Shown here one piece after another: positions 9,986-26,124 of a stretch of 64,000 nt of DNA. The stretch lies in NCBI GenBank assembly GCA_016125035.1, contig WGMN01000011.1:1-64000 (forward strand), written 5' to 3'. The notes below the pieces were generated by a model. That model saw nothing but the letters and a program-made list of their open reading frames with translations. It did not search any database and was not told the origin of the DNA. Origin of the DNA: Pseudomonadota bacterium (GTDB lineage Bacteria; Pseudomonadota; Alphaproteobacteria; UBA2136; UBA6156). The translations under genes and the position numbers were made by a program. Each line of letters opens with the position of its first letter. Position 1 is the first letter of the stretch.

Positions 9986-10052
9986 GCTTGTGCATTTACC
10001 TTAAGTTCGGGGGCAAATGCAGTGTCTAAAACCCACAAGTGGTGAAGATTTG

Positions 10053-10898
10053 GTGCGTACCTCTCTGGTGATTCTCACCTCGGCAATATTGGCCTTGGCC
10101 GCGGTTTGGCTATTGGGGCCACAGCCAAACGGCGGCAGGCACAAGGAAAGTGCTTATGAGCGCGTCATGCGCACGGGGGTTTTGCGGTGTGGGTATAATG
10201 ATTGGGCTCCACTTTTTAGTATGAATCAGGAATCTGGAAAACCTGAGGGGTTTATGGTCGATTTGTTTGAGGAGATCGGTAAACACGCCAACTTAAAGGT
10301 GGAATGGGCGGCGCAGTTGGACTGGGGCACGATTCCTGCCGATTTGGCGGCGGGGAAGGCGGATAGCTTCTGCGCGGCAATTTACGCCAATGCCGTGCGG
10401 GCACGCGGCATGTTGTTTGGTGATGTGACTGGACGGCAGTATCTGGAACCGTTCGTGCGGGCCGACGATGAACGTTTTAGTGGACCGCCGGAACAGGCCT
10501 TTAACCAGCCTGAAATCCGTGTGGTGGGGTGGGAGGGGACGCCTACATTGATGCAGACGCAGCTGCGCTTTCCCAAGGCTAAAACAGTGATGATGTCGAC
10601 CATGGAAGGAACCTCTAATGCGATGCAAGCGGTGGTGACCGACAAGGCGGATGTGTTTTTTACCACCATGGCGGATGCCTCAACATTTATGAAGCATAAC
10701 CCTGGTAAGCTTAGGAGGTTGGGACGAGAGTATTATCTCGGAATGCAAGCACTTGCCCTAAACGCACCGGAAGATGAGCATAACCTGTTGAATTTTTTGA
10801 ACACCAGTCTGCGAGAATTGAAGAACGATGGCACGTTTGACCGGTTGATGGCGAAGTGGAATAAAATCTCGCCAGACTTTATGGAGGCTGCACCGTGA
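10053..10898 (+). CDS. Extracellular solute-binding protein, family 3 (paralog 1 of 4)
   Basis: 281 aa. N-terminal hydrophobic segment, then KESAYERVMRTGVLRCGY, the hallmark shared by all four tandem paralogs, leading into an amino-acid-type (SBP_bac_3) Venus-flytrap domain (GFMVDLFEEIGK; TDKADVFFTT). The GTG start is chosen because it aligns the signal/anchor with the paralogs; an in-frame ATG at 10017 preceded by ggggg is the alternative. Base composition is clearly more AT-rich than the flanking housekeeping genes. It ends with a 4-base overlap into paralog 2. Confidence 0.82.
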   Translation: MRTSLVILTSAILALAAVWLLGPQPNGGRHKESAYERVMRTGVLRCGYNDWAPLFSMNQESGKPEGFMVDLFEEIGKHANLKVEWAAQLDWGTIPADLAAGKADSFCAAIYANAVRARGMLFGDVTGRQYLEPFVRADDERFSGPPEQAFNQPEIRVVGWEGTPTLMQTQLRFPKAKTVMMSTMEGTSNAMQAVVTDKADVFFTTMADASTFMKHNPGKLRRLGREYYLGMQALALNAPEDEHNLLNFLNTSLRELKNDGTFDRLMAKWNKISPDFMEAAP

Positions 10899-11764
10899 AA
10901 AAGGGGGTTATACTGGTCGCCTTAATGGCAGGGCTTATTGGCGGTTTAGTGGGGGTGTGGGTTTTGCGGCCTGTGGGAGGTGGTGAGGGGCACAAGGAGA
11001 GTGCTTATGAACGGGTGATGCGCACGGGAGTTTTGCGTTGCGGTTATATCGTTTGGGCCCCTTACATTACGAAAGACCCAAAAACCGGAGAAATCAGCGG
11101 AATATGGCACGATTTTACCGAGGAAATTGGCAAGGTTCTGAACCTGAAGATTGTGTGGGCGGAAGAGGTAACCTACGGCGATATCGCCGCCAGCATGCAA
11201 AGTGGTCGGGTGGATGCATTTTGCGGCGGGCTTTGGGCGGTGGGTGAGCGTATCCGTGTGATTGACTTTGCCCGGCCGATAACCTTCCAACCCATTCTTC
11301 CCTACGTACGCACGGCCGACCATCGTTTTGACCATGACCTCAGCCTTATCAACTCTCCGCAAGTGAAGGTTTCCACCATTGATGGAGAGGCCGGCGAGTT
11401 GGTGGCGCAGGAAGATTTTCCCAAGGCTCAATTGGCCTCTTTGCCGCAGCTTTCACCAGCCTCGGATATGTTCAATCAGGTTGTGACAGGGAAGGCCGAT
11501 GTGTTCTTCGCCAATCCAGGCAGCATGTCTACTTTCCTGGCCAACAACCCCGGCAAAGTAAGAGCCTTGGATGTGAAACCTTTGCGTATTTTCCCTGAAG
11601 CTTATGCGGTGGCTTATGGCCAGGGAGATTTGCGAGAGATGCTGGATAAAGCAAGCCGGGCCCTTATCTACCAGGGAATCGTGGATAAAATCGTTCAAAA
11701 GTATGAAACGCCGGGCGCTGGGTTTTGGCGTGTGGCACCAGATTACATTAAACCGGAGGAATAA
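10895..11764 (+). CDS. Extracellular solute-binding protein, family 3 (paralog 2 of 4)
   Basis: 289 aa starting with GTG, which overlaps the previous stop by 4 bases. The anchor MKKGVILVALMAGLIGGLVG contains a glycine zipper-like GLIGGLVG and has no lipobox or clear cleavage site, so the protein may stay membrane-anchored facing the periplasm. HKESAYERVMRTGVLRCGY follows, then SBP_bac_3 motifs (DFTEEIGK; GRVDAFCGG; TGKADVFFAN). Like paralog 1 it is relatively AT-rich. Confidence 0.85.
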   Translation: MKKGVILVALMAGLIGGLVGVWVLRPVGGGEGHKESAYERVMRTGVLRCGYIVWAPYITKDPKTGEISGIWHDFTEEIGKVLNLKIVWAEEVTYGDIAASMQSGRVDAFCGGLWAVGERIRVIDFARPITFQPILPYVRTADHRFDHDLSLINSPQVKVSTIDGEAGELVAQEDFPKAQLASLPQLSPASDMFNQVVTGKADVFFANPGSMSTFLANNPGKVRALDVKPLRIFPEAYAVAYGQGDLREMLDKASRALIYQGIVDKIVQKYETPGAGFWRVAPDYIKPEE

Positions 11765-11766
11765 AA

Positions 11767-12636
11767 ATGCGTGTTGGTATCATTCTTCTTGCCTTAGTGG
11801 CAGGGCTTATGGGCGGCTTGCTGGGCGTAACCCTTATCAAGCCTCACCCTCAGGGTGTGGAAGCTGTGCATGAGTCGGCCTACCAGCGTGTATTGCGCAC
11901 CAAAACACTCCGCTGCGGGTATGCGCTTTATGATGTTCTACTGCAGAAGGACCCTAATAGTGGCAAGCTTTCCGGCATTTTCTACGACCTAACCGAGGCG
12001 ATGGCCAAGGAGTTGGGGCTGAAGGTGGAATGGACCATGGAGGTGGGTTACGGCGACATTGAAGAGGCGTTGCGCAGCGACAAGTTTGATATGTTCTGCA
12101 CCGGGGCGATGACCAACCCCAAGCGCGCCAAGCACAGCTTGCAGACGATACCGCTTTACTACAGCGGGTTGGTGGCGTGGGTGCGGGCGGGAGACCATCG
12201 GTTTGATGGTGATTTGGCCAAGCTGAACAACGTGGATGTGCGTTTGGCGACGCGCGATGGTGATGCCTCTGACGAGATTGCGGGGCGGTTGTTCCCCCAA
12301 GCGAAGAAAGTGGCCAGCGCGCAGCTGGCGGACTTTACGCAGATGCTGATGGACGTGAAGGCGGGCAAGGCCGATGCGACGTTCTTCGACCCGGAGTTCG
12401 GCGCGCGGTTTTTAGAGGCCAACCCGGGTTCTGTGCGGGCGATTTTTGCCGACCGGCCGCTGTTTTTGGCGCCAGTGACGATGATGTTGCCGATGGCTGA
12501 GCCGCAATTGAAGAACATGGTGGACGCCACCCTGCGCAACATGGTGCTGCGCGGCGATATGCAGGCGCTGATGCGGAAATATGTGGGGACAACGAAGTAT
12601 TTCTGGTTTGATGCGATGCCGGAGAAGGGAGAATAA
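11767..12636 (+). CDS. Extracellular solute-binding protein, family 3 (paralog 3 of 4)
   Basis: 289 aa; an aaccggaggaataaaa Shine-Dalgarno precedes the ATG. Same layout: a Gly-rich hydrophobic anchor (LMGGLLGVTLI), then HESAYQRVLRTKTLRCGY and the binding-protein fold (IFYDLTEAMAKELG; DKFDMFCTG; GKADATFFD). The AGLMGG...G anchor repeats the pattern of paralogs 2 and 4. It begins two bases after paralog 2. Confidence 0.85.
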   Translation: MRVGIILLALVAGLMGGLLGVTLIKPHPQGVEAVHESAYQRVLRTKTLRCGYALYDVLLQKDPNSGKLSGIFYDLTEAMAKELGLKVEWTMEVGYGDIEEALRSDKFDMFCTGAMTNPKRAKHSLQTIPLYYSGLVAWVRAGDHRFDGDLAKLNNVDVRLATRDGDASDEIAGRLFPQAKKVASAQLADFTQMLMDVKAGKADATFFDPEFGARFLEANPGSVRAIFADRPLFLAPVTMMLPMAEPQLKNMVDATLRNMVLRGDMQALMRKYVGTTKYFWFDAMPEKGE

Positions 12637-12639
12637 ACG

Positions 12640-13500
12640 ATGAAGAAATTCGGTTTTGCCGTAACTCTGCTGGTAGGCTTAGTGGGCGGTCTTTTGGGAG
12701 CATGGCTGTTCAGCGACAACGGTGGTGTGGCAGTCCACAAGGAAAGTGCCTATGAGCGCGTCATGCGCACCGGAACCATCCGCTGCGGGTATTACATGTT
12801 CAAACCGATGAGCTGGAAAGACCCCACCACCGGCCAGATGGAGGGGATGGCGGTGGCCTTTGCCAAAGAGCTGGAAAAACGCTCCGGCATCAAGATGGCA
12901 TGGACCGAGGAGGTGACCTTCGGCAACATGTATGAGGGGCTGAAAACCGGCCGCTATGATGCTATCTGCACCCCCACCTGGCCCGACGGTAACGCGGCCA
13001 AGGTGGTGGATTACGGAAAGAGCTGGTTCTATGCCGGTATTATCCCCATCGTGCGGGCGGATGAAACGCGGTTTGCCTCCTATGCGGATTTTAACCGCCT
13101 GGATGTACGGCTGGTGACGCAGGAGGGCAACTCGTTGGAGGTTCAGGCGCGCACGTTGTTCCCGCAAGCCAAGCAGGTAGTGTTGCCGCCGATTGCGGAT
13201 TCCGGCGAGTTCGACACCGCATTGCTAACCGGCAAGGCCGACGTGATGTTTTGCGACATGAACCGCTACCTGCAAACCGACGCCAGCCACCCCGGAAAGT
13301 TAAAGGTACTGGACTGGTCGCCGGTGCAGGTGAACCCCTTTAAAATGGCCGTGAACAAAGGCGAGGGGGGCCTCAACGCCTTTTTGAGCGAAAACGTGGA
13401 AAGTATGATTAACGACGGCACGATGGTGCGTATTATCAAGCAATACCAACCCGTGCCGAAGACCTTCCTACCGGTGACAAAGCCCTACGCGGAAGATTAG
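12640..13500 (+). CDS. Extracellular solute-binding protein, family 3 (paralog 4 of 4)
   Basis: 286 aa, preceded by gagaagggagaataaacg. Anchor LLVGLVGGLLGAWLF, then HKESAYERVMRTGTIRCGY and the family 3 domain (GMAVAFAKELEKRSGIKMAW; GKADVMFCD). GC content is back to that of the surrounding genome. It is followed 11 bases later by the permease, which makes it the most likely direct transporter partner. Confidence 0.85.
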   Translation: MKKFGFAVTLLVGLVGGLLGAWLFSDNGGVAVHKESAYERVMRTGTIRCGYYMFKPMSWKDPTTGQMEGMAVAFAKELEKRSGIKMAWTEEVTFGNMYEGLKTGRYDAICTPTWPDGNAAKVVDYGKSWFYAGIIPIVRADETRFASYADFNRLDVRLVTQEGNSLEVQARTLFPQAKQVVLPPIADSGEFDTALLTGKADVMFCDMNRYLQTDASHPGKLKVLDWSPVQVNPFKMAVNKGEGGLNAFLSENVESMINDGTMVRIIKQYQPVPKTFLPVTKPYAED

Positions 13501-13511
13501 GTTACAAACAC

Positions 13512-14183
13512 ATGTTCCTCACCGCCGCCCAAATCCTCTGGGAGTACCGCGAAGCCTTCTTAAAGGGCCTGGCGGTCACGCTGGAGATGAGCGCCATCAT
13601 CTGGAGTGTAGGTATTGTGCTGGGCTTCACCCTGGGGTGGCTGGGCGCCACTTACCGGGACAGCGTCGGCCAGGTGGTGCGCTGGACGTCTTTTGTGCTC
13701 GGCGGCGTGCCCATCCTGGTGTTCCTATTCTGGCTGCATTACCCGGCGCAGGCGATGTTCAACCTGGTGATTGACCCGTTCTACACCGCCACCTTCACCT
13801 TCACGGTCATCAACGTGGTGGCCATTGCCGAGCTGGTGCGCGGCGCCCTGATGGACTTCCCTCAGCAATACCTCACCGCCGCCAAGGTGTGCGGTGTACC
13901 AGCGCGGCAGACGTTTTTACGCATCCAATTGCCTCTGCTGCTGCGCGGGGTCATTCCGGCGCTGCTGATGCTGCAAATCGTCATGCTGCACACCACGCTG
14001 TTTGCCAGCCTGATTTCAGTGGAGGAAATCTTCCGCATTGCCCAGCGCATCAACGCACTCATCTACAAACCGGTGGAAATCTACACCGCGCTGGGGGTGT
14101 TCTTCCTGGCCGTCAGCCTGCCGGTGAACGGCTTTGCCCTGTGGTTCAAGGCGCGTTACACGCGCGATACCTCGGAGAACTAA
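13512..14183 (+). CDS. ABC amino-acid-type transporter permease
   Basis: 223 aa with five or six membrane helices. The inner-membrane coupling loop is EYLTAAKVCGVPARQTFLRIQLP-like, with the conserved E/Q-Y..AA...G.P..Q.F..I.LP (EAA) pattern around residue 115-140 that docks the ATPase. HisM/GlnP-like length and topology. Only one permease is encoded, so the channel is probably a homodimer. It lies 11 bases after the fourth binding protein and 3 bases before the ATPase. Confidence 0.88.
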   Translation: MFLTAAQILWEYREAFLKGLAVTLEMSAIIWSVGIVLGFTLGWLGATYRDSVGQVVRWTSFVLGGVPILVFLFWLHYPAQAMFNLVIDPFYTATFTFTVINVVAIAELVRGALMDFPQQYLTAAKVCGVPARQTFLRIQLPLLLRGVIPALLMLQIVMLHTTLFASLISVEEIFRIAQRINALIYKPVEIYTALGVFFLAVSLPVNGFALWFKARYTRDTSEN

Positions 14184-14186
14184 CCC

Positions 14187-14930
14187 ATGCTCACCGCCAC
14201 CAACCTCAGCAAAAACTACCAGGGCCACAAGGTGCTTAAAGGCGTAAGCCTCAGCCTCAAGCCCGGCGAGATTACCACCGTGCTGGGGCCCTCCGGCTCC
14301 GGCAAAACCACGTTGCTGAAGCTCCTCTCCCTGCTCGAGGCAGCAGATGCCGGCAGCCTGATGGTGGATGAGAAAATCTACAACTTCCCCTGGGATGACC
14401 GAGGCGGCGCCTACCCCCTCGTGGGGCCGTGGCCCAAGCTAACAGTCGTGTTCCAACAGCTGTTCCTGTGGCCGCACCTCACCCTGCGCGAGAACATTTT
14501 ACTGCCGGTGCTGGCCCGTGGCGCCACCGAGGCCAGCGTGAAGAAAGACCTGGCGGAATTGGTGGACATTATGGAAATGGGCGAGTTCCTGGACCGCTAC
14601 CCCAACCAGGTGTCTGGCGGCCAAAAGCAACGCGCGGCCCTGGCGCGGGCCATTTTGCTGAAACCGCAGTACCTGCTGCTGGATGAGATCACCTCGGCGC
14701 TGGATGTGATCCAGGTCGCCAAAATTGTGGAACTGTTACCGCTGCTGGCCAAACGCGGCATCGGCATGGTGCTGGTCACCCACCTGCTTAACTTCGCCCG
14801 CAAAACCGCCGACAACGTGCTGTACATGGAAAATGGCGCTGTGGTGGAAGAAGGCGCGCGGAGCATCTTGGCCAAGCCCAAAAGCAAGCAGCTGCGCGCC
14901 TTTCTCCAGGCGGCGGATAAAGCCAGTTAA
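14187..14930 (+). CDS. ABC transporter ATP-binding protein (polar amino acid type)
   Basis: 247 aa. Walker A GPSGSGKTT (~34-42), Q-loop in FQQLFLWPHLT, signature VSGGQKQRAAL (~142-152), Walker B YLLLDEITSALD (~160-171) with catalytic Glu, H-loop VLVTHLL. The Walker B region reads DEITSALD as in GlnQ/HisP-type ATPases. It completes the importer made by the preceding permease and, presumably, one or more of the four binding proteins. It ends 24 bases from the convergent DUF3299 gene. Confidence 0.92.
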   Translation: MLTATNLSKNYQGHKVLKGVSLSLKPGEITTVLGPSGSGKTTLLKLLSLLEAADAGSLMVDEKIYNFPWDDRGGAYPLVGPWPKLTVVFQQLFLWPHLTLRENILLPVLARGATEASVKKDLAELVDIMEMGEFLDRYPNQVSGGQKQRAALARAILLKPQYLLLDEITSALDVIQVAKIVELLPLLAKRGIGMVLVTHLLNFARKTADNVLYMENGAVVEEGARSILAKPKSKQLRAFLQAADKAS

Positions 14931-14954: not shown

Positions 14955-15527
14955 TTATGGCAGTCCATCCCCGCCATCCCTCCCACCGGAAGGATTCACC
15001 ATCCCGTAGCTCACCTTCTTCTGCTTCAGCAGCACACCGTCCTTCATCACAAAAAAGATGCCGTTCTCGGTGTTGTTGGTCAGGCGGAAGGTCCCCTGCA
15101 TGGTCAGCATGGTGTCGTCGTAGGGTACGCCTTTCTTGGCGATCACCTCAATCACTTCATTGGGCTCGCCCGGCGGGCAAAAAGGGCAGGTCGGCGTCCG
15201 CTTGGAAAGCAGGAAGTGGGTAGATTTCTCTCCGCTGTCCATCGGCAGCATAAAGCCATCCACGGTAATCGTCCGCCCGTTCATCGCCTTGATCTCCGGG
15301 GTAAGCTTGGCGGTGATATGCGGCTCTTTGTTGCTGTAGCTTATTTTGGATTTGATCAACGTATTCCACACCACCCCGCTGGCCATCGGCAGGCTCTCTT
15401 GTGCTTTACGCTCATCAATCGGCTGGTAGGCACTGTCATCATCGGCCTTGCTGGAAAAGGCAAACCCCGCACTGGCCGTTAAAACGGCCAGTGCGGTAAG
15501 GGGGAACAGGCAGGTTCTCATATGCAT
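14955..15527 (-). CDS. DUF3299 secreted protein
   Basis: 190 aa; a cleavable-looking signal peptide (FPLTALAVLTASAGFAFS). CPFCPPGEPNEVIEV around residue 112 is the characteristic Cys motif of DUF3299 proteins, which are commonly found next to FtsX-like ABC systems. GFMLPMDSGEKSTHFLLS precedes it. The start has an aaaaggaaaggat Shine-Dalgarno. It is the last gene of the leftward zur operon. The adjacency of DUF3299, FtsX-like permease and ATPase resembles the ZrgABCDE-type zinc systems described in Vibrio; the match is by family and context only. Confidence 0.75.
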   Translation of the reverse strand: MHMRTCLFPLTALAVLTASAGFAFSSKADDDSAYQPIDERKAQESLPMASGVVWNTLIKSKISYSNKEPHITAKLTPEIKAMNGRTITVDGFMLPMDSGEKSTHFLLSKRTPTCPFCPPGEPNEVIEVIAKKGVPYDDTMLTMQGTFRLTNNTENGIFFVMKDGVLLKQKKVSYGMVNPSGGRDGGDGLP

Positions 15528-15538
15528 ATCCTTTCCTT

Positions 15539-16738
15539 TTACCGGCTGGCCAGCAAGCGCGGCAGGCTCAGGCGGTAGATACGCAGCGCGGGCACAAAGG
15601 CCCCCACCAGCCCCAGGCCCACCACTGCGGCAAACAGGCAGGCGTAGGCTTGCGGGTCGGCCACCGTGCCTTCGGCCAGCTGCCCGCCAAAAACCTGGGC
15701 GGCGGCAAAACGCGCAAAGCCGTAACTCAGCGCCAGCCCCAGCGCGGCCCCCAGCGCGCTGATGGTCACGCCCTCCAGCAGCACCAGGCGCATCACCTTA
15801 AACGGCCCGGCACCAAAGCAACGCATCAACGCCAGGTCGTAAAGGCGCTGGCGCATCGCTTCAGCCATCGCCACCAGCAACCCCAGCGCGGCAATGCCGA
15901 TAAACACCCCGCCGATAAGCTTCAGCGTATCACTGCCCACACCCACCAGCTTGCGCAGGCGCGCGGCCTCCCACGCGGGGCTGGCCGCCTGCATGTCGGT
16001 CTGCTTGTTGATAAGCCTCGGCAGGCTCGCCACCGCCAGCGGCGTGCGGTACTTCACCAGCACTGCGGTCACTTCGCGGTTCTCGGGTTTGGGGCGCTCT
16101 TCCACCGGGGTGTCGTCGTCGTTTTCGTGCACATACCACACGCTGTCCACGGGGGTCAGCACCAGCCGGTCCAAAATGGTGCCGCTGGGCTTTAAAATTC
16201 CCACCAGGGTGTAGGGCGCAAAGCTGTGCAGCTCTCCTCCCGGCGCCAACCCGTGCGACCCTGCAAATTTTCCGCCCAGCTTCAGCCCCAGCGCCTGCGC
16301 CACGTCATGCCCGGCCACCGCCTCCATGGTGTGGGCAAACATCCTCCCGCCGGGCTGCAGGCGCGCGCCGTACCAATCCGCGTAGTCCGGGGTGGTGCCC
16401 ACAATGCGGTAACCGGCCAGGTTATCGCCCAGCGCCAGCGGCACTGTGGCTTTAATGAGCGGGTTGTCCTTCAGCGCCTCGGCTTCTTTTAAGGGTATGT
16501 TCCCGGTGGGCACGTCGGCGTGCAACACGGCAGAGAGCACCAGCTGCAACGGGCTGCCCTTGGCTCCCACCACCATGTCGATGCCCTGCAGGTTGCGCGT
16601 CAGGTTGTGCTCAAACTGGCTGCCCACCGCCAGCACCCCTGCCATCAGCGCCGTCCCCAGCGCAAACAGCACCACGTTATACCCGGTGCGCAACGCGTTG
16701 TGCTTCAGGTAGGCCATCATCAAACCGAATGTGCTCAT
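15539..16738 (-). CDS. FtsX-like ABC transporter permease
   Basis: 399 aa. MacB/FtsX topology: one N-terminal TM (~18-38), a large periplasmic domain (~40-265), then three C-terminal TMs (~272-292, 322-342, 367-387). VSQ/GAKGSPLQLVLSAVLH is typical of the YbjZ/LolE-like subgroup. It pairs with the ATPase encoded 2 bases upstream. Such complexes move substrates by mechanotransmission rather than as importers. With Zur upstream and DUF3299 downstream, a role in zinc or metallophore handling is inferred. Confidence 0.85.
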   Translation of the reverse strand: MSTFGLMMAYLKHNALRTGYNVVLFALGTALMAGVLAVGSQFEHNLTRNLQGIDMVVGAKGSPLQLVLSAVLHADVPTGNIPLKEAEALKDNPLIKATVPLALGDNLAGYRIVGTTPDYADWYGARLQPGGRMFAHTMEAVAGHDVAQALGLKLGGKFAGSHGLAPGGELHSFAPYTLVGILKPSGTILDRLVLTPVDSVWYVHENDDDTPVEERPKPENREVTAVLVKYRTPLAVASLPRLINKQTDMQAASPAWEAARLRKLVGVGSDTLKLIGGVFIGIAALGLLVAMAEAMRQRLYDLALMRCFGAGPFKVMRLVLLEGVTISALGAALGLALSYGFARFAAAQVFGGQLAEGTVADPQAYACLFAAVVGLGLVGAFVPALRIYRLSLPRLLASR

Positions 16739-16740
16739 GG

Positions 16741-17379
16741 CTATTCTCCCTTCAGGCTCAGCGTTTGGCTGAAGTGTTTCTTAATCCGCGCATCATGGCT
16801 GGCGGCGACCACCTGCGCCCCCACGCTCTCAGCCGTTTCCAGCAGAAGGCCGATCACCGCCTCCGCCGCCTCGTCGTCCAGCGCCGAGGTCGGCTCATCC
16901 GCCAGCACCAGCTGCGGCTTGTGCACCAACGCACGGGCCACACCCACCCGCTGCTGCTGGCCGAGGCTCAACTCATGCGGGCGCCGCTGCGCCAGTTTCC
17001 CCAAGCCCAGCTTCTCCAGCAACGCCAGCGCGTGGGCCTGCTCCACCGCCAGCCCGGCCATAAAGGGCGCCACCAGCACGTTCTGCAACACGGTCAGCGG
17101 CGCCATCAGGTGCGGCTGCTGGAACACAAAGCCGATATTCCGCCCGCGATACGCATCCCGCGCAGCGGCGGGCAAAGCCGTCATCTCGGTTTCGCCGAGA
17201 TAAATCCTCCCCTTCTGCGGCTGCAAAAGCCCGGCCAGCAAAAACAGCAGGCTGCTTTTGCCAGAGCCGGAAGGCCCCTGCACCAACAGGTGTTGGCTGT
17301 TGTTAAGGCGCAGTTTGCGCACATCAATCAAGGGGGCTTTGGCGCTGTAGCCAAAGCCCAGGTTGCTTATTTCCAGCAT
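16741..17379 (-). CDS. MacB/LolD-like ABC transporter ATPase
   Basis: 212 aa. Walker A QGPSGSGKSSLL (~34-45), Q-loop FVFQQPHLM, signature LSLGQQQRVGVARAL, Walker B LVLADEPTSALDD, H-loop AASHD. Note the LSLGQ signature in place of the usual LSGGQ. It drives the FtsX-like permease that begins 2 bases downstream. The small secreted protein gene ends 3 bases before its start, which supports one operon from zur through DUF3299. Confidence 0.9.
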   Translation of the reverse strand: MLEISNLGFGYSAKAPLIDVRKLRLNNSQHLLVQGPSGSGKSSLLFLLAGLLQPQKGRIYLGETEMTALPAAARDAYRGRNIGFVFQQPHLMAPLTVLQNVLVAPFMAGLAVEQAHALALLEKLGLGKLAQRRPHELSLGQQQRVGVARALVHKPQLVLADEPTSALDDEAAEAVIGLLLETAESVGAQVVAASHDARIKKHFSQTLSLKGE

Positions 17380-17611: not shown

Positions 17612-17905
17612 CTAAGCGGATACAGGCGGCGCCCGCGGCAAAGACGCGGCAACCAGCGCCACTGCGGCAAGCGAGTACCAGCGCGCCACCGGCAGCATAA
17701 CCAGCGCCATGAACAAAGGCACTATAATTGCCGCCGGCCCATCGGCCAGCACCAGGTGCTGGCAATACTCATAAATCTCGCAAGCCTTGCCGTGGTGTTT
17801 GTGGTCTTCAAAACCGTGGGTGGCCACGTGCATAAACGCGGCGGCCTGCACCGCCACAAACATCAAGGCCAGCAGCAGTCCCCAAAAAGAGCGACGCACA
17901 CGCAT
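17612..17905 (-). CDS. Small membrane protein with His-rich loop
   Basis: 97 aa: a hydrophobic N-terminus (~7-24), a His/Cys-rich stretch GFEDHKHHGKACEIYEYC (~31-48) that could bind zinc, then a hydrophobic C-terminal half. It resembles the small DUF2946-like proteins seen near zinc genes, though I cannot confirm the family. Its ATG lies one base after the zur stop, so the two are almost certainly cotranscribed. Confidence 0.6.
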   Translation of the reverse strand: MRVRRSFWGLLLALMFVAVQAAAFMHVATHGFEDHKHHGKACEIYEYCQHLVLADGPAAIIVPLFMALVMLPVARWYSLAAVALVAASLPRAPPVSA

Positions 17906-17906
17906 C

Positions 17907-18362
17907 TCAGGCTTTATCCCGGCAATCGGCGCAACGCCCCACCACTTCCAGGTGGCGGTGGGTCACTTCAAAGTGGTGTTTATGGGCTTCATTCTCCACC
18001 TGGCGGTCCAGGGGGGCAGAGCTCACCTCCACCACCTCGCGGCAATCGCCGCACACCAAAAGCTGGCTGGCGTGGGCCTCATCCGGGTGGGGGCAACCGA
18101 TATAGGCATTCAGGCTGGCCACTTTATGGATAAACCCGTTCTGCTGCAAAAACTCCAACGCGCGGTAGGTCACCGGCGGCTTGTCGTTTTTCAATTTGTG
18201 CATAATTTCAGCGGCACTCAGCGCCTTGTGCCCCTGCCAGATAAGCTTAAGCACCGCACGCCGGGTTTCGGTCAGCCGCAGCCCCCGCTCGGCGCACACA
18301 CGCTCCACCTGGGCCAGGGCATCCTTCACGCAGTGGCTGTGGTCGTGGCGGTGGCCCAACAC
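17907..18362 (-). CDS. zur: Zinc uptake regulator Zur (Fur family)
   Basis: 151 aa. A winged helix (LTETRRAVLKLIWQGHKALSAAEI...PPVTYRALEFL) is followed by a Fur-type dimerisation domain with structural zinc cysteines in LLVCGDCREV and VGRCADCRDK and metal-site His residues (HKHHFEVTHRHLEVVG). The paired CxxC motifs and the His-rich N-terminus (GHRHDHSHC) favour Zur over Fur. GTG start with an AGGGAGA ribosome site. It heads a leftward operon and is divergent from the nicotianamine-synthase-like gene. A palindrome in its own promoter suggests autoregulation. Confidence 0.85.
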   Translation of the reverse strand: MLGHRHDHSHCVKDALAQVERVCAERGLRLTETRRAVLKLIWQGHKALSAAEIMHKLKNDKPPVTYRALEFLQQNGFIHKVASLNAYIGCPHPDEAHASQLLVCGDCREVVEVSSAPLDRQVENEAHKHHFEVTHRHLEVVGRCADCRDKA

Positions 18363-18385
18363 TTTCTCCCTAAATAATGGTTGAC

Positions 18386-18414
18386 AGATTACTGTTAATT
18401 ATTAACAACAGCAA
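18386..18414 (-). promoter_or_regulatory. Promoter of the zur operon
   Basis: On the minus strand TTGCTG and TAATCT are separated by exactly 17 bases, and the start codon is about 24 bases downstream of the -10. The spacer is filled by the 15-bp palindrome described separately, so a bound repressor would block RNA polymerase. Confidence 0.5.
18393..18407. promoter_or_regulatory. Putative Zur operator 1
   Basis: TGTTAATTATTAACA is a perfect 15-bp palindrome (one central base) in the 75-bp gap between zur and the divergent nicotianamine-synthase-like gene. The same half-sites recur at 20130-20144. The layout, a regulator divergent from its target with the site between, fits Zur, but binding is inferred. 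Confidence 0.6.
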
Positions 18415-18437
18415 CCGTTAACTGCAACAACCCTACC

Positions 18438-19259
18438 ATGACCGCCACCTCAAACCACACCCCTCTCCCCCCTTCTGCCCACGCGGTACGCAAGGTCATG
18501 GCCCGGCTTGAAGGCCTGCCCGACCTCACTCCCTCCGCCGCAGCCACTTCGGCCTTCAACTGCCTGGTGGGCATGGCGCGGCGGCGGGTTCCGACCGCGG
18601 TGGCGGCAGATATCGTAAGCACCCTCTCACAAACGGGAGAACTCTCGCGCCTTCACACCCTGTGCGCGCGGGGTGAAGCCGGGCTTGAGCACGCCTGGAG
18701 CACCCGCCTCAACACCTCCGCCAATCCTTCCGCCCTGCTGGCAACCTTCCCTTATATGGCCGAATACCGCACCCTCGTCGCGCAAGAGGTTGCCCTGCTG
18801 CGCAAAACCTTTCCTTCCGCGCAGCGGGTGCTGTTCGTCGGCAGCGGCCCCCTGCCGCTCAGCCCGTGGCTGATGTCCGCACGCCACGGCCTCACCGTCG
18901 ACATGCTTGATAAAGATGCCTCCGCCCACCACTGCGCCCTGCCCTGGCTGCAAAAGCTTCCCGGCCACCAAAACCTCCGCTGCCTGCACGCCGACATCCT
19001 CCACATGAACAACTTCTCGGCCTTCCACGCCGTCTTCCTGGGCGCCATGGTGGGCACCACGCAGGATGAAAAACGCACCATCCTCTCCCACCTGCACACA
19101 GCCATGCTGCCCGGCCAGCCCCTGCTGGCCCGCAGTGCAAAAGGGCTGCGCCAGCTGCTCTACCCTCAGCTTCCCGCAGCCGCGGGGTTCAGGCTGGCCG
19201 GGTCCACCCGCGCCGGCGGCAAGGTCATCAACTCCACCCTCCTGCTCATCCGCGTGTAG
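18438..19259 (+). CDS. Nicotianamine synthase-like protein (metallophore biosynthesis)
   Basis: 273 aa, the size of bacterial CntL. FPYMAEYRTLVAQEVALL (~104-121) matches the FPYY.NY....E segment of nicotianamine synthases. VLFVGSGPLPLSPWLM (~131-146) is the SAM-binding motif that separates this family from ordinary methyltransferases. LDKD (~157) binds the SAM ribose. Family members transfer aminobutyrate from SAM to an amine or another SAM, giving nicotianamine or the staphylopine/pseudopaline backbone, which chelate zinc, nickel and related metals. It starts divergent from zur with a palindromic operator between. No opine dehydrogenase (CntM), exporter or TonB receptor gene lies beside it. 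No clear Shine-Dalgarno. Confidence 0.8.
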   Translation: MTATSNHTPLPPSAHAVRKVMARLEGLPDLTPSAAATSAFNCLVGMARRRVPTAVAADIVSTLSQTGELSRLHTLCARGEAGLEHAWSTRLNTSANPSALLATFPYMAEYRTLVAQEVALLRKTFPSAQRVLFVGSGPLPLSPWLMSARHGLTVDMLDKDASAHHCALPWLQKLPGHQNLRCLHADILHMNNFSAFHAVFLGAMVGTTQDEKRTILSHLHTAMLPGQPLLARSAKGLRQLLYPQLPAAAGFRLAGSTRAGGKVINSTLLLIRV

Positions 19260-19272
19260 GGCCTTAAGTATT

Positions 19273-19298
19273 AAAAAAGGGGCCCCGTCAGGGGCCCC
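19273..19298 (-). terminator. Terminator between convergent genes
   Basis: GGGGCCCC-GTCA-GGGGCCCC is a perfect 8-bp stem. On the minus strand it is followed by TTTTTT, ending the Cys-motif gene. On the plus strand a TTTTT lies 7 bases later, so it may also serve the nicotianamine-synthase-like gene. Confidence 0.8.
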
Positions 19299-19310: not shown

Positions 19311-20111
19311 CTAAAGGCCGGCACTCCAGTGCAGGTCTTCACGCCGCCCCACCTTCATGGGGCTGAACATCACCAGGTCCTTTCCCAGGTGGGTGGCCAC
19401 CAGCCGCTGCATGGCAGGCACTCCCAGCAGGGCGCAGGTGTCGTGGCCCAGGCCGGCCGGCACTTCCACCCCTTCGGGCGGCAGTTCGGCGGGCAGGCTG
19501 GCCAACCAGGCCTTCCCCCGGCAAAAGCCGATGTAGCTCAGCTTCCACAACTCGGCCTCGGCCTGCTCTTCGGGCAGGTAGGCTGGCTGGTCGGCATCCA
19601 CCCAGCGCCAGTACTTGAACGCACGGCTCGCCCGGGTGTCCAGCTCTTCCACCGCCGTCTCCGGCAACACGCCGATAACCCCGCCCGGCCCCACGCCCGC
19701 CCGGGGCTCATAGGTCTGGGAGAAGTAGCACTGCAACGCCAGGCGCTTGCCCAGCAGCCCTTGCACCGCCACCTGGTAAAGGGGGCAGGCCGCCAGGCTC
19801 AAAACCTCGGCACGCAAGGCGCCGTCGCCCACGTCGCAACCAATGCAGAAGTAGGGCTGCAACGCCCGGTCGGGCATCTGCTCTTCGCGGTTGCGGGCCT
19901 CCAGCACGGCCAGGGTATCCAGCGCCCGGCCGTACCGATGCTCAAAGCGCCCCATAAAGGCCTCACGCTGCCCGGCGCTGCCCTGCACGCGGTGCATGGG
20001 CAGCGTGGTTTTCTTGGAATAACGAAGCAACGAAGCCTCCTCACGTTTCAAGCCGGGTAAAGAATCCCGGTGGTGATCCACGCCGCAAACGGGACAAATC
20101 TCATGCGTCAT
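19311..20111 (-). CDS. Uncharacterised protein with two CxxC motifs (266 aa)
   Basis: I do not recognise a family. Two Cys pairs, CPVCG (~6-10) and CIGC (~89-92), could form a zinc or redox site. Single cysteines occur later (AACPLYQ, GFCRGKAW, DTCALLG). It has no signal peptide or membrane segment. The gene shares with zur a palindrome-bearing promoter and converges on the nicotianamine-synthase-like gene. The predicted transcription start lies at or next to the ATG and no Shine-Dalgarno is present, so the mRNA may be leaderless. Operator sharing suggests a role under zinc limitation. Confidence 0.6.
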   Translation of the reverse strand: MTHEICPVCGVDHHRDSLPGLKREEASLLRYSKKTTLPMHRVQGSAGQREAFMGRFEHRYGRALDTLAVLEARNREEQMPDRALQPYFCIGCDVGDGALRAEVLSLAACPLYQVAVQGLLGKRLALQCYFSQTYEPRAGVGPGGVIGVLPETAVEELDTRASRAFKYWRWVDADQPAYLPEEQAEAELWKLSYIGFCRGKAWLASLPAELPPEGVEVPAGLGHDTCALLGVPAMQRLVATHLGKDLVMFSPMKVGRREDLHWSAGL

Positions 20112-20118
20112 GCCCGCG

Positions 20119-20147
20119 CTTATAGAATATGTTAAAACTTAACACAA
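20119..20147 (-). promoter_or_regulatory. Promoter of the 266-aa gene
   Basis: On the minus strand TTGTGT and TATAAG are spaced by 17 bases, with the -10 ending 7 bases before the ATG. The palindrome 20130-20144 overlaps the -35 and spacer, much as in the zur promoter. Confidence 0.45.
20130..20144. promoter_or_regulatory. Putative Zur operator 2
   Basis: TGTTAAAACTTAACA has the same TGTTAA/TTAACA half-sites and 3-base spacer as operator 1 at 18393-18407. It lies 19 bases upstream of the 266-aa gene and 52 bases upstream of the divergent MscL-headed frame. Confidence 0.55.
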
Positions 20148-20195
20148 GCTTTTTCCCCCTTGCCTCTCCCCGCCGGCATGGTTAAAGTCACCTCC

Positions 20196-20471
20196 ATGTC
20201 ATTCATTCAGGAATTCAAAACCTTCGCCATGCGCGGCAACGTCATCGAACTCGCGGACGGGCAGGGGGCTCTCATCCCCCAAATCCTGCAACTGGTGGGG
20301 GTGCCGGGCATCCACGCTGTAGTGGTTGAAAAACTGGGGCATTCCTTCCAGCTCTACAACTGCTGCGGCGTAAAACCCAAGGAGCGCACAAGCGACACTG
20401 AACTCCGCCAAACGGTGTCCTTCCACACCCAACTGCTCAACCAGGCCAGCAGCGAGCTGATGGACTGTTAA
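20196..20471 (+). pseudogene. MscL-headed open frame (91 aa), probable gene remnant or chimera
   Basis: The first ~18 residues, MSFIQEFKTFAMRGNVIELA, are nearly identical to the start of the large-conductance mechanosensitive channel MscL. The rest (ILQLVGVPGIHAVVVEKLG..., FHTQLLNQASSELMDC) lacks the MscL transmembrane helices. Reading the other two frames after the junction does not restore MscL. Either the 5' end of mscL was fused to unrelated DNA, or a small chimeric gene survives. A 12-bp stem-loop follows the stop. Confidence 0.45.
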
Positions 20472-21132: not shown

Positions 21133-21422
21133 CATCAACCATCGCATTGAAAGAACGTTATTTTTTGTACATCCCCAACCGGGGGGGCTTATCAAGGTTT
21201 AAGTTATACACGATGTAATGTCGTACAAACAAAAAAAACCACAAATCAATGTTTTAAAAAGGAAGTGTATTTAAACTGAAGTGAGGCATATCACATAAAC
21301 ATTGTTAAAAACATAAATGCAACACACCCTAAGGTTGTGTAACCCCCATCGTTTTCATATGAGTTGCGTAAAATATAAGCTGCTTACAAATTATGCATAT
21401 GACCCTAACAGGATACCCCCCG
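21133..21422. other. AT-rich intergenic region between ohrR-like gene and pilus operon
   Basis: Markedly AT-rich compared with the rest of the window. It contains a loose inverted repeat (ttttttgtaca near 21161 and cgtacaaacaaa near 21220) and a small hairpin ACACA...TGTGT near 21323-21341. It must hold the promoter of the pilus operon, but I cannot assign boxes with confidence. No gene seen. Confidence 0.5.
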
Positions 21423-21914
21423 ATGCACTCCTTCATCTCCTTCCGTAGTGTTGCCAGTCTTACTCTGGCCGCTCTTTCAATTCCGGTTTTTTGCCATGCC
21501 GCCAGCACCGGCCAGGTCACCATCGTGGCCAGCGTGCCCTCTACCTGCAACATCACTGTCACGCCGCAGGCAGGTGCCACCATCGCCAACCTTACCTTGG
21601 GGGCCACCAATCTTCAGGTCGCCACGGTTAATGAGTCCTGCAACGCGCCCGCCGGTTACACCGTTACCATGGTGGGCACAAACTCCACCGATTACACCGG
21701 AAAATTCGTCGACAGCGGCAGCTCCAGCACCCGCACCTTCACCGTGCGTTATGGCGGCAACACGCTCAACTCCACCCTTGTAACCGATGTAAACAGCCCC
21801 AACACCTCGGTCGATAAAAACGTCGATATCACCTATCCGGCCGATACCACTCTCACCGCTTCCAGTGGTGCCACCTATGCCGAAACCCTTAACTTCACCA
21901 TCACGTCTAAGTAG
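21423..21914 (+). CDS. Csu-type (spore coat U domain) major pilin subunit
   Basis: 163 aa secreted protein. Signal peptide ending near CHAAS, then STCNITVTPQ...LTLGATNL...NESCNAPAGYTVTM, the Cys-pair pattern of spore-coat-U/CsuA/B pilins. It closes with beta-strand ETLNFTITSK, typical of the family. AGGAT before the ATG. It is the first gene of a four-gene archaic chaperone-usher operon (pilin, chaperone, usher, two-domain tip subunit), which builds biofilm-promoting fibres on the outer membrane. Confidence 0.85.
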   Translation: MHSFISFRSVASLTLAALSIPVFCHAASTGQVTIVASVPSTCNITVTPQAGATIANLTLGATNLQVATVNESCNAPAGYTVTMVGTNSTDYTGKFVDSGSSSTRTFTVRYGGNTLNSTLVTDVNSPNTSVDKNVDITYPADTTLTASSGATYAETLNFTITSK

Positions 21915-21915
21915 C

Positions 21916-22647
21916 ATGTTCAAGTTCGTTGCTTTCTGCCTCTGTCTTATGGCATGGCCTGCTTGGGCCACACCGTCGTTTGGCATCGAGCCCTTCAAAA
22001 GCCAACTTGCCCCCGCCGATGGCCAGAATACCCAAATCTTCACCCTCACCAACAGCAGCGACGATACCATCGCCGTGCAAATCCATATGGAAAGCTGGTC
22101 AACCGATCTCAACGGCCAAGAGCAAAGCACGGTGGATACCACCAACTTCAGCGTCTATCCAACCCAGTTCGCACTCAAAGCCCACAGCAACCGCACGGTC
22201 AGGGTCACATGGCTGGGCCCCATGCCAGTGCAAACAGAAAAAGCCTTTCGCCTGGTGGCCGAGCAGTTGCCGGTCAACTTCAATCCGGGTGCACCAGAAA
22301 ACGCGCTGCGCTTCCTCCTGCGTTACCGCACGGCATTCTATATAGCTCCGTCAACCCCTCGCCAAAAACTGGTGGTGAGCGATTTCCAGCACAACATAAA
22401 CTCCAACACCTTGGTCTTCACACTGGCAAACCAGGGCAACGTCCACGTCATGCTGCACCAGCCGGTGCTCAACCTCACCGATTCTTCGGGGCGAACCCAC
22501 ACGCTTCGTGACGTGCTGGTAAGAAGCGCGCTGGAAAACAACAACGTGCTCAGCGGCGGCCAAAGGCAGTTCAGCATCCCCTGGCCCAAAGAGATGGGGG
22601 ACAACCAGCCAAAGGCCCTCAGTATTGATTACATCGCCGGCTTTTAA
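21916..22647 (+). CDS. Periplasmic pilus chaperone (CsuC/PapD-like)
   Basis: 243 aa. Signal peptide (FVAFCLCLMAWPAWA), then the first Ig-like domain with FSVYPTQFALKAHSNRTVRV and AFRLVAEQLPV, and a second domain ending in LSIDYIAGF. It caps pilin subunits in the periplasm and delivers them to the usher. It begins 1 base after the pilin stop. Its 3' end overlaps the usher frame. Confidence 0.88.
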   Translation: MFKFVAFCLCLMAWPAWATPSFGIEPFKSQLAPADGQNTQIFTLTNSSDDTIAVQIHMESWSTDLNGQEQSTVDTTNFSVYPTQFALKAHSNRTVRVTWLGPMPVQTEKAFRLVAEQLPVNFNPGAPENALRFLLRYRTAFYIAPSTPRQKLVVSDFQHNINSNTLVFTLANQGNVHVMLHQPVLNLTDSSGRTHTLRDVLVRSALENNNVLSGGQRQFSIPWPKEMGDNQPKALSIDYIAGF

Positions 22648-25153
22648 CGCATGGCCACTGGTGCTCCTGGTGATGTATCTCAGCCTGCTTTCCCCTCCCT
22701 GTCTGGGGCAGCAGGTATCGTCAAGCGAGCCCTCCGGCCTTAATCACCTGCCTTTGTTTCTTGACGGGGCTCAAATCGCCACGCTGTCGGTCCAGCAGGA
22801 TGAAAACGGGATAAAGGCCAACACCCAACAGGCCATCACCGCTCTCAAGCCCATCCTTCTGCCAGAAGCCCTGGGCCTGCTCGAAGGCCTGCTGGAAGAC
22901 GATGCCTGGTGGCCGGTCAACACGCCCCATGCCGGGGTGGAAATTGCCTACGACCCTCAAAACGTTGCGCTCATCCTCAATGCTCCGCGCTTCGTGCGTA
23001 ACCCCACCCGTTACTCTGCTTCTCCTCCCTCTTCCGCTCCGCTGGGGCGCCTGGTTTCCCCCAGTCCGCTTTCCGCGTACCTGAATATTTACGCCGCACA
23101 AAATCACCTGAGCGGCTTTGGCGCCGATGACGGCCGCCAGCCCCTGCGGCTAGATTTCGACGGCGCGATCAACCTGCGCGGATGGGTGCTGGAAAGCCAG
23201 GCCGGCTACACCGAAGATGCCGCCAATCCCTTAACCTTGCGCAACACCCGGCTGGTGCATGACGACACGCAAAACCTCATCCGTTACCAGGTGGGAGAAC
23301 TCAGCTACCCCACCTCTGGGTTTCAAGGGTTCACGCAGCTGCTGGGGGTGGGCATGGCACGCAATTTTCTGCTCCAGCCTTACCGGGTAACCCAACCGGT
23401 GGGGCAAACGCGCTTTGTGCTTGAAAGTCCTGCCACGGTGGATGTCCTGGTTAACGACGTCAAAGTCAAAAGCCTGCAACTTCCGGCCGGCACTTACCAG
23501 TTATCCGATTTCCCGGTCATCAGCGGCGCCAACAACGTGCGCCTGATCATCACCGACAACGCCGGCCGGGTGGAAGAGAAAGACCTCTCCATCCTCACCG
23601 ACGGCACATTGCTCAAAGCCGGCCTGGCCGAGTTCACCGCCAACGCCGGCGTGCCGGTCGATCCTCTCTCCACCTCGCGCGCTTATCAAACCAACAAACC
23701 GCAAATTTCGGCACTGTTACGCTACGGGCTCACCGATACCTACACCGCCGGCGTCAACATACAGGGCGGCGCCGAACAACAGCTTTTCGGCCTCGGCCAA
23801 ACCCTGGCCGGCCCGCTGGGCCTGTTTCACCTTGAAAGCGCGCTCAGCCGCGCCCGGGGGCAGGGGGGGCTTGCCGATAACTGGGACGGTGGCGCCCGCC
23901 TGGAATACCGCCTGCTCACCGATAACGCCCGGCCGAACGATCTCCCGCCGGATGCCTGGCAGGCTGCTGTGGAATACCAAGGTTCTGCCTTCAATGTTCC
24001 AGCAGGGCAAACCAACACCTCCGGCCTGCAACTGCAAAGCAGCTACAACCATGCTTTTACCGAAAAGCTCTCCTTGCTGTTTGGCAGCTCCTACCGTTTT
24101 GCTTCCGGCTCTGTGGAGGATGACTACCGCACCAATCTCACCTTCAGCTACCGCCCGCGCTCCAACTGGGTCATCACAATCGATAACGCCATCAGCCTGC
24201 GCGATCATTTCAGCGTGCTTGCCAACATCACCTGGTTCCCCTGGCGCAGTAACGAGGTAGCAAGCGCCGGCTATGATTCTCAAAGCCGCACCCTGCGCAG
24301 CTCCTATACCCGTTACCGCGCGGCCAATACCGGGTGGGATACCGGCTTGGAGGTGGAACACACGCCGTATGGAGAGAATATCGGTGGCAACCTCGGCTAC
24401 ACCGGCATCCGCGGCACCGCGCGGCTGCAAAGTGAGCGGCGCACCACGCTCGACGGCAAAGCGGGCACCTCCACGCAGGTAAATCTGGCCACTGCCGTGG
24501 CCTATGCAGGCGGCAACGTGGCGCTCAGCCATCCCATTAACAACAGCTTTGCCATCGTTGTACCGGTCAAGGGCACCACTCGTGGAAGGCTCTTGCTCAA
24601 CCCCAACACTCTAGACGATGGCGAAACCACCGATGAAGGCCACAGCGGCCCATTCGGTCCTGCCGTTCTTACCGACCTCTCTCCTTATACTTACCGTTAT
24701 GTTCAGGCAAACATCGCCAATGCTTCCACTCCAGAGCGCGATAACTTCGTGCTCTTTCCCAGTTATAAAAGCGGCACGCGCGTGCGGGTGGGTCGCCCTC
24801 ACCTGGCCGAGGTGGAAGGTTATTTAGACGACGCCGACGACAAACCGCTGTCCTACATCGCCGCCAACGTCAATACGCAACGCGGTTCCCGCGCCGCCGC
24901 GGTGGTCGATGATTCCGACATCGAGCCCGCCGCCGGCCCCATCGACCTTCCCTTCACCTTCACCAACAAAGACGGCTTTTTCCATATCGATGACCTCCCC
25001 CCCGGCACCTACCGCCTGGCCATGCCGGATAACGACCAGGGCACGTTCGAGTTCACCGTGCCCGAACACGTCTCCGGCACCATCGATCTTGGCCACCGCC
25101 GCCTCAACGTGCGCGCCGGGCACCAAAGCGCCGCCGCCGAGGCCGTGCCATGA
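22625..25153 (+). CDS. Outer membrane fimbrial usher (Csu type)
   Basis: 842 aa. N-terminal signal (PLVLLVMYLSLLSPPCLG), N-domain, 24-strand beta barrel with the plug region, and a C-terminal region with GYLDDADDKPL and the carboxypeptidase-like turn GFFHIDDLPPGTYRL. It is the secretion pore and assembly platform for the pilus. The start is uncertain: a TTG overlapping the chaperone by 23 bases gives the best signal peptide, while GTG codons 11-15 residues later are alternatives. It overlaps the tip-subunit gene by 4 bases. Confidence 0.9.
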   Translation: MITSPAFNAWPLVLLVMYLSLLSPPCLGQQVSSSEPSGLNHLPLFLDGAQIATLSVQQDENGIKANTQQAITALKPILLPEALGLLEGLLEDDAWWPVNTPHAGVEIAYDPQNVALILNAPRFVRNPTRYSASPPSSAPLGRLVSPSPLSAYLNIYAAQNHLSGFGADDGRQPLRLDFDGAINLRGWVLESQAGYTEDAANPLTLRNTRLVHDDTQNLIRYQVGELSYPTSGFQGFTQLLGVGMARNFLLQPYRVTQPVGQTRFVLESPATVDVLVNDVKVKSLQLPAGTYQLSDFPVISGANNVRLIITDNAGRVEEKDLSILTDGTLLKAGLAEFTANAGVPVDPLSTSRAYQTNKPQISALLRYGLTDTYTAGVNIQGGAEQQLFGLGQTLAGPLGLFHLESALSRARGQGGLADNWDGGARLEYRLLTDNARPNDLPPDAWQAAVEYQGSAFNVPAGQTNTSGLQLQSSYNHAFTEKLSLLFGSSYRFASGSVEDDYRTNLTFSYRPRSNWVITIDNAISLRDHFSVLANITWFPWRSNEVASAGYDSQSRTLRSSYTRYRAANTGWDTGLEVEHTPYGENIGGNLGYTGIRGTARLQSERRTTLDGKAGTSTQVNLATAVAYAGGNVALSHPINNSFAIVVPVKGTTRGRLLLNPNTLDDGETTDEGHSGPFGPAVLTDLSPYTYRYVQANIANASTPERDNFVLFPSYKSGTRVRVGRPHLAEVEGYLDDADDKPLSYIAANVNTQRGSRAAAVVDDSDIEPAAGPIDLPFTFTNKDGFFHIDDLPPGTYRLAMPDNDQGTFEFTVPEHVSGTIDLGHRRLNVRAGHQSAAAEAVP

Positions 25154-26124
25154 GACAACGGCTCGTCTGGCTCATACTCTTCATCCTGGCGGCGGGGCAG
25201 GCGCACGCGGTGTGCCTCAACCTCAGCATCATCAATATCACCGGCGGGCAGGTGTTCACCGGCTCTGGCGGCGGCTACCAACCATATGATACCTCCGAGT
25301 ACCTCAAAACCGTCAGCTTCGATGTCCAGGCCCAGGTCAGCATTGCCGCCTGCCCGTATTTTGTGGTGCTTCGCACGGGGCAATCAGGCAGCGCCTCGGC
25401 CCGAGAGCTCTGGCGCGGAAGCAGCGCCAACAAACTCAACTACCAGGCTTATATCGACTCTACTAAAGCCAATATCCTGCGCGACTCCGCCACCGCCAAC
25501 ACCAGCACCGCCATCACCGGCAACTTCGCGGTGCTGGGCGGCACCCAAACCAACCACCACAGCTTTGTGTGGACTGTCCCGGCAGGGCAGGTGGCAGCCG
25601 CCAACGCCAGCCCTTATGCCGACAACGGCGTGGTGCTGGAAGTATGGGAAGGGGTGCTCGGCTTGCTGCCTGTGCTGCGTAACACCGCCACGCTTAATTT
25701 CTCCACCACGGTGCTTAGCAGTGTCGATGTCGCGGTGGTCGGCACTGGTAGCCCCTTTGCCATCGGCAGCACATCGCGCAACGTCAACTTCGGCACCGCC
25801 AGCAGCGGGGCCCAGCAAAACTTCGATCTCTCCATCCGCAGCAATGACGGCTACCAAATTTCCATGCAGTCGGCCAACGGGCAAAAGCTCAAGCACAGCA
25901 TCAGTTCGGTCTCCACCACCATCCCCTACACCATCACCGTCAGCGGCACGTCGCAAAACCTTTCCTCCGGCGGGGCGGTCACCGTGGCCACCAGCGCCAG
26001 CGGCGCCACCACGCCGGCCATCGGCACTAATATTCCTGTGCGCGTCACCTTGGGCACTCTTAGCGGCGCGGAAACGTCGGGTAATTATAACGATACCCTC
26101 AGCCTCTCCATCACCGCCCACTAA
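25150..26124 (+). CDS. Two-domain spore coat U tip subunit (CsuE-like)
   Basis: 324 aa. Signal peptide MRQRLVWLILFILAAGQAHA, then two Csu-type Ig-like domains (~20-180 and ~190-324). The second shows NVNFGTASSGAQQNFDLSIRS and ends NYNDTLSLSITAH, as in pilin domains. The two-domain layout and last position in the operon fit the tip adhesin of archaic pili. It overlaps the usher by 4 bases. Confidence 0.82.
   Translation: MRQRLVWLILFILAAGQAHAVCLNLSIINITGGQVFTGSGGGYQPYDTSEYLKTVSFDVQAQVSIAACPYFVVLRTGQSGSASARELWRGSSANKLNYQAYIDSTKANILRDSATANTSTAITGNFAVLGGTQTNHHSFVWTVPAGQVAAANASPYADNGVVLEVWEGVLGLLPVLRNTATLNFSTTVLSSVDVAVVGTGSPFAIGSTSRNVNFGTASSGAQQNFDLSIRSNDGYQISMQSANGQKLKHSISSVSTTIPYTITVSGTSQNLSSGGAVTVATSASGATTPAIGTNIPVRVTLGTLSGAETSGNYNDTLSLSITAH

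Follow-up and report, generated by a model that had tools for sequence, protein, structure and literature searches.

A Predicted Nicotianamine Synthase Gene Divergent from zur in an Uncultured Alphaproteobacterium, with No Adjoining CntM Gene

Introduction

The closest described relatives of the gene treated here are the plant and fungal forms of nicotianamine synthase (NAS), together with their homologues in actinobacteria (PMC10248798; PMC12454661). Beyond land plants, only certain fungi and actinobacteria are known to have a nicotianamine-type gene, and its distribution in bacteria is scantly known (PMC12454661, 2025). In AtNAS1, E77 and Y106 are essential for activity, and E73 and the VGMD motif (206-209) are required too; the latter two are kept in nicotianamine makers and changed in microbial NAS-like enzymes (PMC10248798). 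A second group comprises CntL of the staphylopine and pseudopaline loci, which works with CntM; zincophore surveys based on CntM miss CntM-free systems (PMC7438024). The thermonicotianamine synthase mtNAS (3fpe) provides a further solved relative. Here, we analyze a predicted NAS gene that lies next to the zinc uptake regulator gene zur in a stretch of 64,000 nucleotides (the window; positions 1 to 64,000 of contig WGMN01000011.1, assembly GCA_016125035.1). The host is an uncultured alphaproteobacterium with a small genome (1.45 Mb in 18 contigs, 90.7% complete; labelled G000). Bacterial NAS genes next to zur may already be covered in the review of nicotianamine-like metallophores by Laffont and Arnoux (2020). 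At a probability of roughly 0.58, we favor the reading, drawn from sequence comparison, that this nicotianamine-type NAS is repressed by zinc-loaded Zur and makes a zinc ligand without opine tailoring.

Family and Fold of the Enzyme

18438..19259, + strand: nicotianamine synthase (NAS), 273 aa; ATG at 18438, stop codon at 19257-19259; assigned by PF03059, predicted fold and residue mapping

Judged by its sequence and predicted structure, the protein is a member of the nicotianamine synthase family. It matches PF03059 with 137.6 bits (cut-off 27.1; E = 6.9e-40) over positions 12-268 of the 276 in the profile, and a PF03059 search of the 1.45-Mb genome found this single copy. The motifs FPYMAEY and FVGSGPLPLS correspond to residues 104-110 and 133-142. 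Among solved structures, a single-sequence search retrieved only mtNAS chains, while a family-profile search against the PDB returned mtNAS (1.8e-34) followed by Staphylococcus aureus CntL (SaCntL; 7.5e-15). The AlphaFold model, built from 22 sequences, has a predicted local distance difference test (pLDDT) score of 94 and keeps the two-domain NAS fold. Its best Foldseek matches are mtNAS, with template modelling (TM) scores of 0.83-0.86, against 0.45-0.70 for the CntL chains (query-normalised); Rossmann methyltransferase folds are weak matches. An ordinary methyltransferase is disfavored because both sequence and fold point to NAS. The first-pass annotation had placed a nicotianamine synthase/CntL-type gene at these coordinates on the basis of the two motifs; coordinates and motifs were both correct, and the profile score and the proximity to the mtNAS fold agree with that assignment. 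The named relatives stem from metagenome-assembled genomes (MAGs) of ponds and lakes.

Active Site and Likely Product

Residue mapping, for which the solved E81Q mutants of mtNAS served as an internal check, aligns Glu84 and Tyr110 of the window NAS with Glu81 and Tyr107 of mtNAS, which stand at the positions of E77 and Y106 in AtNAS1. Four residues before Glu84, Glu80 is the equivalent of AtNAS1 Glu73 according to the residue spacing in PMC10248798. In the profile alignment, its position is taken by Gly77 in mtNAS and by Val in SaCntL. Val205-Gly206 mark the start of the loop that reads 206-VGMD-209 in AtNAS1; here it reads VGTT, with the first two residues matching and the last two differing. 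This loop is missing from both mtNAS and SaCntL in the same alignment and, as SaCntL also has an Ile at the Tyr110 position, it lacks the Glu80 equivalent, the tyrosine and the loop alike. Glu80, Glu84, Tyr110 and Glu117 are invariant among the 22 relatives. The window NAS shares with plant and fungal NAS and the actinobacterial homologues the PF03059 domain, the catalytic Glu and Tyr, the Glu73 equivalent, the Val-Gly loop and the short form of about 270-280 aa, and differs from them in its bacterial host, its Zur box, the zrg-like operon next door and VGTT instead of VGMD. With CntL, it has in common a PF03059-related fold, the catalytic Glu and zinc-linked regulation; fold and profile similarity to CntL are lower. 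On these residues, the active site favors nicotianamine formation over the CntL reaction, in line with the first-pass suggestion of free nicotianamine as a possible product.

The Val-Gly loop splits the 22 relatives: the window NAS has it, as do those of four sister genomes, of Pyxidicoccus and of nine actinobacteria, whereas seven other alphaproteobacterial proteins lack it. In a tree composed without plant and fungal NAS sequences, the window NAS groups with 14 other loop-bearing bacterial NAS (actinobacteria, Pyxidicoccus and sister MAGs; support 94/94), apart from mtNAS and CntL, and long branches leave the finer branching order unsure. The occurrence of NAS in this alphaproteobacterial order and in Pyxidicoccus widens the known set and bears on the horizontal transfers described in PMC12454661.

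Three observations concern the wider family. The seven loopless proteins of the class form a second NAS subfamily. In some alphaproteobacteria, two diverged genes of the NAS family lie side by side (L047, L050 and L053; genomes G248, G096 and G215). The NAS of the myxobacterium Pyxidicoccus fallax (L035:7995-8837) is of the nicotianamine type with a VGMN loop and adjoins an open reading frame (ORF) that resembles, by eye, a phytanoyl-CoA dioxygenase.

Zur Boxes and Regulation

17907..18362, - strand: zur, zinc uptake regulator of the Fur family, 151 aa (PF01475, 3.5e-12; NCBIfam PRK11639, 7.9e-30; Escherichia coli Zur 4mtd, 5e-23)
18393..18407, no strand: perfect Zur box TGTTAATTATTAACA in the zur-NAS gap, with each start codon 30 nt away; fits GTTA-N5-TAAC
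20130..20144, no strand: second perfect Zur box TGTTAAAACTTAACA, 18 nt before the start codon of a gene for a 266-aa protein (see below)

NAS and zur are divergently oriented with a gap of 75 bp (18363-18437), and the first box lies midway between them. This arrangement had been pointed out in the first pass, which missed the second box, the zrg-like character of the operon and the recurring neighbors (see below). The identity of zur, on which the arrangement depends, is backed by the NCBIfam model and the match to E. coli Zur. Proteobacterial Zur sites have GTTA-N5-TAAC as their conserved core, and three Caulobacter sites listed in the same source carry TGTTA-N5-TAACA (PMC4176598). The extended motif occurs three times in the whole genome, compared to about 0.17 copies expected per genome under an order-2 Markov null and none in the backward control. 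Two of the three copies are in the window; the third (C17:67034), where a glutaredoxin-like gene has its 3' end, seems to be there by chance. In sister genomes, the motif precedes zur (G004, G007, G016 and, via its operon, G015), COG0523 GTPase genes (G004, G014, G016; PF02492, E 1e-54 to 1e-56), a gene for a His-rich membrane protein (G004, G014, G007) and relatives of the 266-aa gene. As COG0523 genes are often Zur targets (PMC6103462), the motif reads, from its sequence and placement, as the Zur box of the host lineage. The NAS promoter carries this box at 18393-18407, by which NAS would be counted among the putative members of the Zur regulon. A sigma-70 promoter scan of the gap between zur and NAS found no promoter.

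Of the looser GTTA-N5-TAAC sites in the genome, most fall within genes or at their 3' ends, or have no flanking T/A. One such site (C1:9100), 82 nt before an ATP-binding cassette (ABC) exporter gene followed by a major facilitator superfamily gene, was weighed as an export candidate and dropped because its flanks misfit the Zur box. A one-mismatch box before NAS in G013 was rejected as it overlaps a hairpin after rplO.

Separately, a protein of 212-216 aa with a GDLYGPYEAVW motif is encoded near perfect Zur boxes in two genomes (L099:3843-4481 in G007 and L098:3905-4552 in G006). The G007 copy has no Pfam match; the protein is a further candidate for an undescribed member of the Zur regulon.

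Transport Candidates, CntM and Receptors

The zur operon continues downstream with five further features.

17612..17905, - strand: putative membrane protein, 97 aa, in the ZrgD position (no significant family match; position compared with Table 1 of PMC9817125)
17383..17541, - strand: putative secreted Cys-containing peptide, 52 aa (speculative ORF), at the position of Vibrio zrgA
16741..17379, - strand: ABC ATPase, LolD-like, in a ZrgC-like position (PF00005, 8.5e-31; LolD, 1.6e-47)
15539..16738, - strand: FtsX/MacB-type permease, ZrgB-like (PF02687, 2.8e-14; PF12704, 1.3e-11)
14955..15527, - strand: DUF3299 periplasmic protein, ZrgE-like (PF11736, 8.3e-9; PDB 4hsp, 1.3e-5)

Zrg is a zinc ABC transporter of Vibrio (PMC9820375, PMC9817125). 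In V. parahaemolyticus, the gene order is zrgE (DUF3299), zrgB (permease), zrgC (ATPase), zrgA and zrgD (PMC9817125), and ZrgB is described as MacB-like (PMC9820375). Since both gene order and the MacB-like permease agree, the zur operon resembles, by analogy, a zrg operon with zrgA missing or replaced. The ATPase, the permease and the DUF3299 protein occur in matching order and the link to Zur is shared, whereas a 52-aa ORF stands where Vibrio has zrgA. ZrgA (DUF2796/PF10986) was found in 0/18 genomes (G000 and its order) by a search in which no positive control rang. The idea put forward in the first pass that the ABC system of the zur operon is a transport candidate gains from this likeness to a zinc transporter. 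An amino-acid-type ABC cluster (10017-14930), tail to tail with the zrg-like operon, is another candidate for chelate uptake by its position alone; the cluster consists of four consecutive family-3 binding proteins (PF00497), one permease and one ATPase. Four binding proteins for a single permease and ATPase are an unusual number.

Neither CntM nor an exporter gene is present beside NAS in the window, as the first-pass annotation had stated for CntM. Genome searches for CntM (PF10100) gave no match in G000 and 18 other genomes, and none that passed the cut-off among 385 genomes from the class and 399 from the phylum; as no positive control rang, this is to be read as an absence of detection only. 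TonB-dependent receptors (PF00593) were not found in G000 (90.7% complete), G013 and G015, with positive controls from E. coli and Caulobacter, and are present in the NAS-bearing sisters G009 and G010. Compared to the CntL/CntM loci, the host genome thus differs in that neither CntM (with the control caveat above) nor a TonB receptor was found.

Recurring Neighbors

19311..20111, - strand: 266-aa protein of an undescribed family with a conserved CxxC (Cys89, Cys92); second Zur box 18 nt upstream
20160..20471, + strand: small ORF, 103 aa (92 aa if started at 20193); the second Zur box separates it from the 266-aa gene
19279..19298, - strand: terminator-like hairpin downstream of the 266-aa gene, in the space where this gene and NAS converge (weak; 1 found versus 1.5 expected in shuffles)

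The 266-aa family has no match in Pfam, NCBIfam or among PDB folds (model pLDDT of 80). A relative with 42% identity is encoded directly upstream of zur in G015, in the same direction and with two Zur boxes in front; another in G016 is divergent from zur with two Zur boxes between. Further relatives are found between NAS and a GNAT acetyltransferase gene in G009 and beside GNAT in G010. Three genomes (G013, G009 and G015) have GNAT itself adjacent to NAS or in its vicinity, and G016 has it beside a divergent NAS-like gene; it was not detected in G000. A His-rich membrane protein, with relatedness judged by eye, is encoded next to the NAS gene of G010 and a short way from the NAS-like gene of G016. 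Within the family, a close-type NAS co-occurs with GNAT or the 266-aa gene (5/5 versus 1/6; Fisher p = 0.015), which is suggestive only because the genomes are few, related and incomplete. NAS hence sits in a recurring zinc-linked gene set, even though no CntM or exporter gene adjoins it, and the neighborhood of NAS, GNAT, 266-aa protein and His-rich membrane protein in the sister genomes is unreported before.

The small ORF (20160-20471) starts with 20 MscL-like residues, while the rest resembles the C-terminus of the 275-aa G016 protein that is related to the 266-aa protein. It looks like a fusion or remnant that shares the second Zur box. A SCO5389/KH_NucS_shadow match of its C-terminus is weak (E about 1e-3) and was not relied on. 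The NAS-like gene of G016 (L078:1366-2199), directly after GNAT, is very divergent, with a PF03059 E-value of 1e-4 that is below the cut-off.

Proposed Function and Alternative Explanations

According to the favored reading, in which the motif and knowledge of the Zur family suggest repression, zinc shortage would make Zur leave the box at 18393-18407, such that NAS, zur and the zrg-like ABC operon would be expressed together, and the 266-aa gene would be expressed under the same shortage from its own box. NAS would then join aminocarboxypropyl groups of S-adenosylmethionine (SAM) and, as the residues suggest, most likely close the azetidine ring, yielding nicotianamine directly with no need for an opine dehydrogenase. 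The small chelator would serve zinc supply, either as a cytosolic or periplasmic ligand or as a porin-passing complex that may enter via the zur-linked ABC system. Since no TonB receptor was detected, these roles are likelier than that of a TonB-dependent metallophore. More tentative, at clearly less than even odds, is the complete scheme of genuine free nicotianamine under Zur control, made without opine tailoring or a TonB receptor, acting as an internal or porin-permeable zinc ligand and coupled to a zrg-type transporter minus its binding protein and to the 266-aa Zur-regulon family. If free nicotianamine is indeed made, it would represent a Zur-controlled bacterial zinc ligand built like that of plants, with the 266-aa protein, GNAT and the His-rich membrane protein as testable partners. 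Surveys of bacterial zincophores that start from CntM are blind to such loci.

Several observations weigh against the favored reading. The loop reads VGTT rather than VGMD, and other members vary too (VGLT, VGET, AGLD, VLGQS). Glu80 is also present in alphaproteobacterial NAS without the loop and is therefore not a clean marker of the nicotianamine type. The NAS genes of sister genomes with examined upstream DNA have no Zur box in front, so that Zur control of NAS is indicated by the motif in G000 only. Finally, a CntM or receptor gene could sit in a gap of the genome, as this is 90.7% complete.

One alternative is a CntL- or mtNAS-like enzyme that transfers one or two aminobutyrate units onto histidine, glutamate or another amino acid, the product being used directly or completed through a further gene, such as the GNAT of the sister genomes. 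The recurrence of GNAT in four genomes (G013, G009, G015 and, beside the NAS-like gene, G016) speaks for this explanation. We nevertheless consider it unlikely, given that the window NAS has Glu80, Tyr110 and the Val-Gly loop, all three of which SaCntL lacks, that GNAT was not detected in G000 and that CntM was not found either, the latter by the search lacking a positive control.

Doubts are stronger for a classical secreted zincophore, i.e., nicotianamine or a relative that is exported, binds zinc outside and returns via an outer-membrane receptor of its own and the zrg-like ABC system. Regulation by Zur would match that of known zincophores (PMC6103462), the zur operon is similar to the Zrg zinc transporter (PMC9820375, PMC9817125) and TonB receptors are present in two NAS-bearing sister genomes, G009 and G010. 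However, the lack of such a receptor in G000, as in G013 and G015, with working controls argues against a receptor-mediated scheme in the host, and no exporter gene adjoins NAS. Moreover, ABC proteins of the MacB type often work in export or have no part in import. We therefore regard this scheme as improbable. The interpretation given in the first pass stands as to the NAS family, the link to Zur, the lack of a detected CntM, nicotianamine as a possible product and an ABC system of zinc-transporter type, and is weakened as to a classical metallophore recaptured by a TonB receptor. Highly improbable, finally, is the use of the NAS fold for an unrelated SAM reaction (methyl transfer or azetidine-2-carboxylate (AZE) formation) with a zinc link by shared promoter only: weak Rossmann methyltransferase matches and the SAM cyclisation of AZE synthases in a methyltransferase fold would agree with it, but the catalytic Glu84 and Tyr110 and the two-domain fold are kept, and AZE synthases are class I methyltransferases of another family, with motifs of their own (PMC11794875).

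Other Loci

Two loci apart from the zinc-linked genes were noticed. A pilus-like locus (21393-26124) comprises an usher (PF00577), a chaperone-like ORF and, on the far side of this ORF, a protein with a spore coat protein U domain (PF05229). On contig C1 of G000, a very long ORF (L026:6505-11001) resembles, by eye, a DotA/TraY-type secretion protein, which might point to a life style as a predator or in association with a host.
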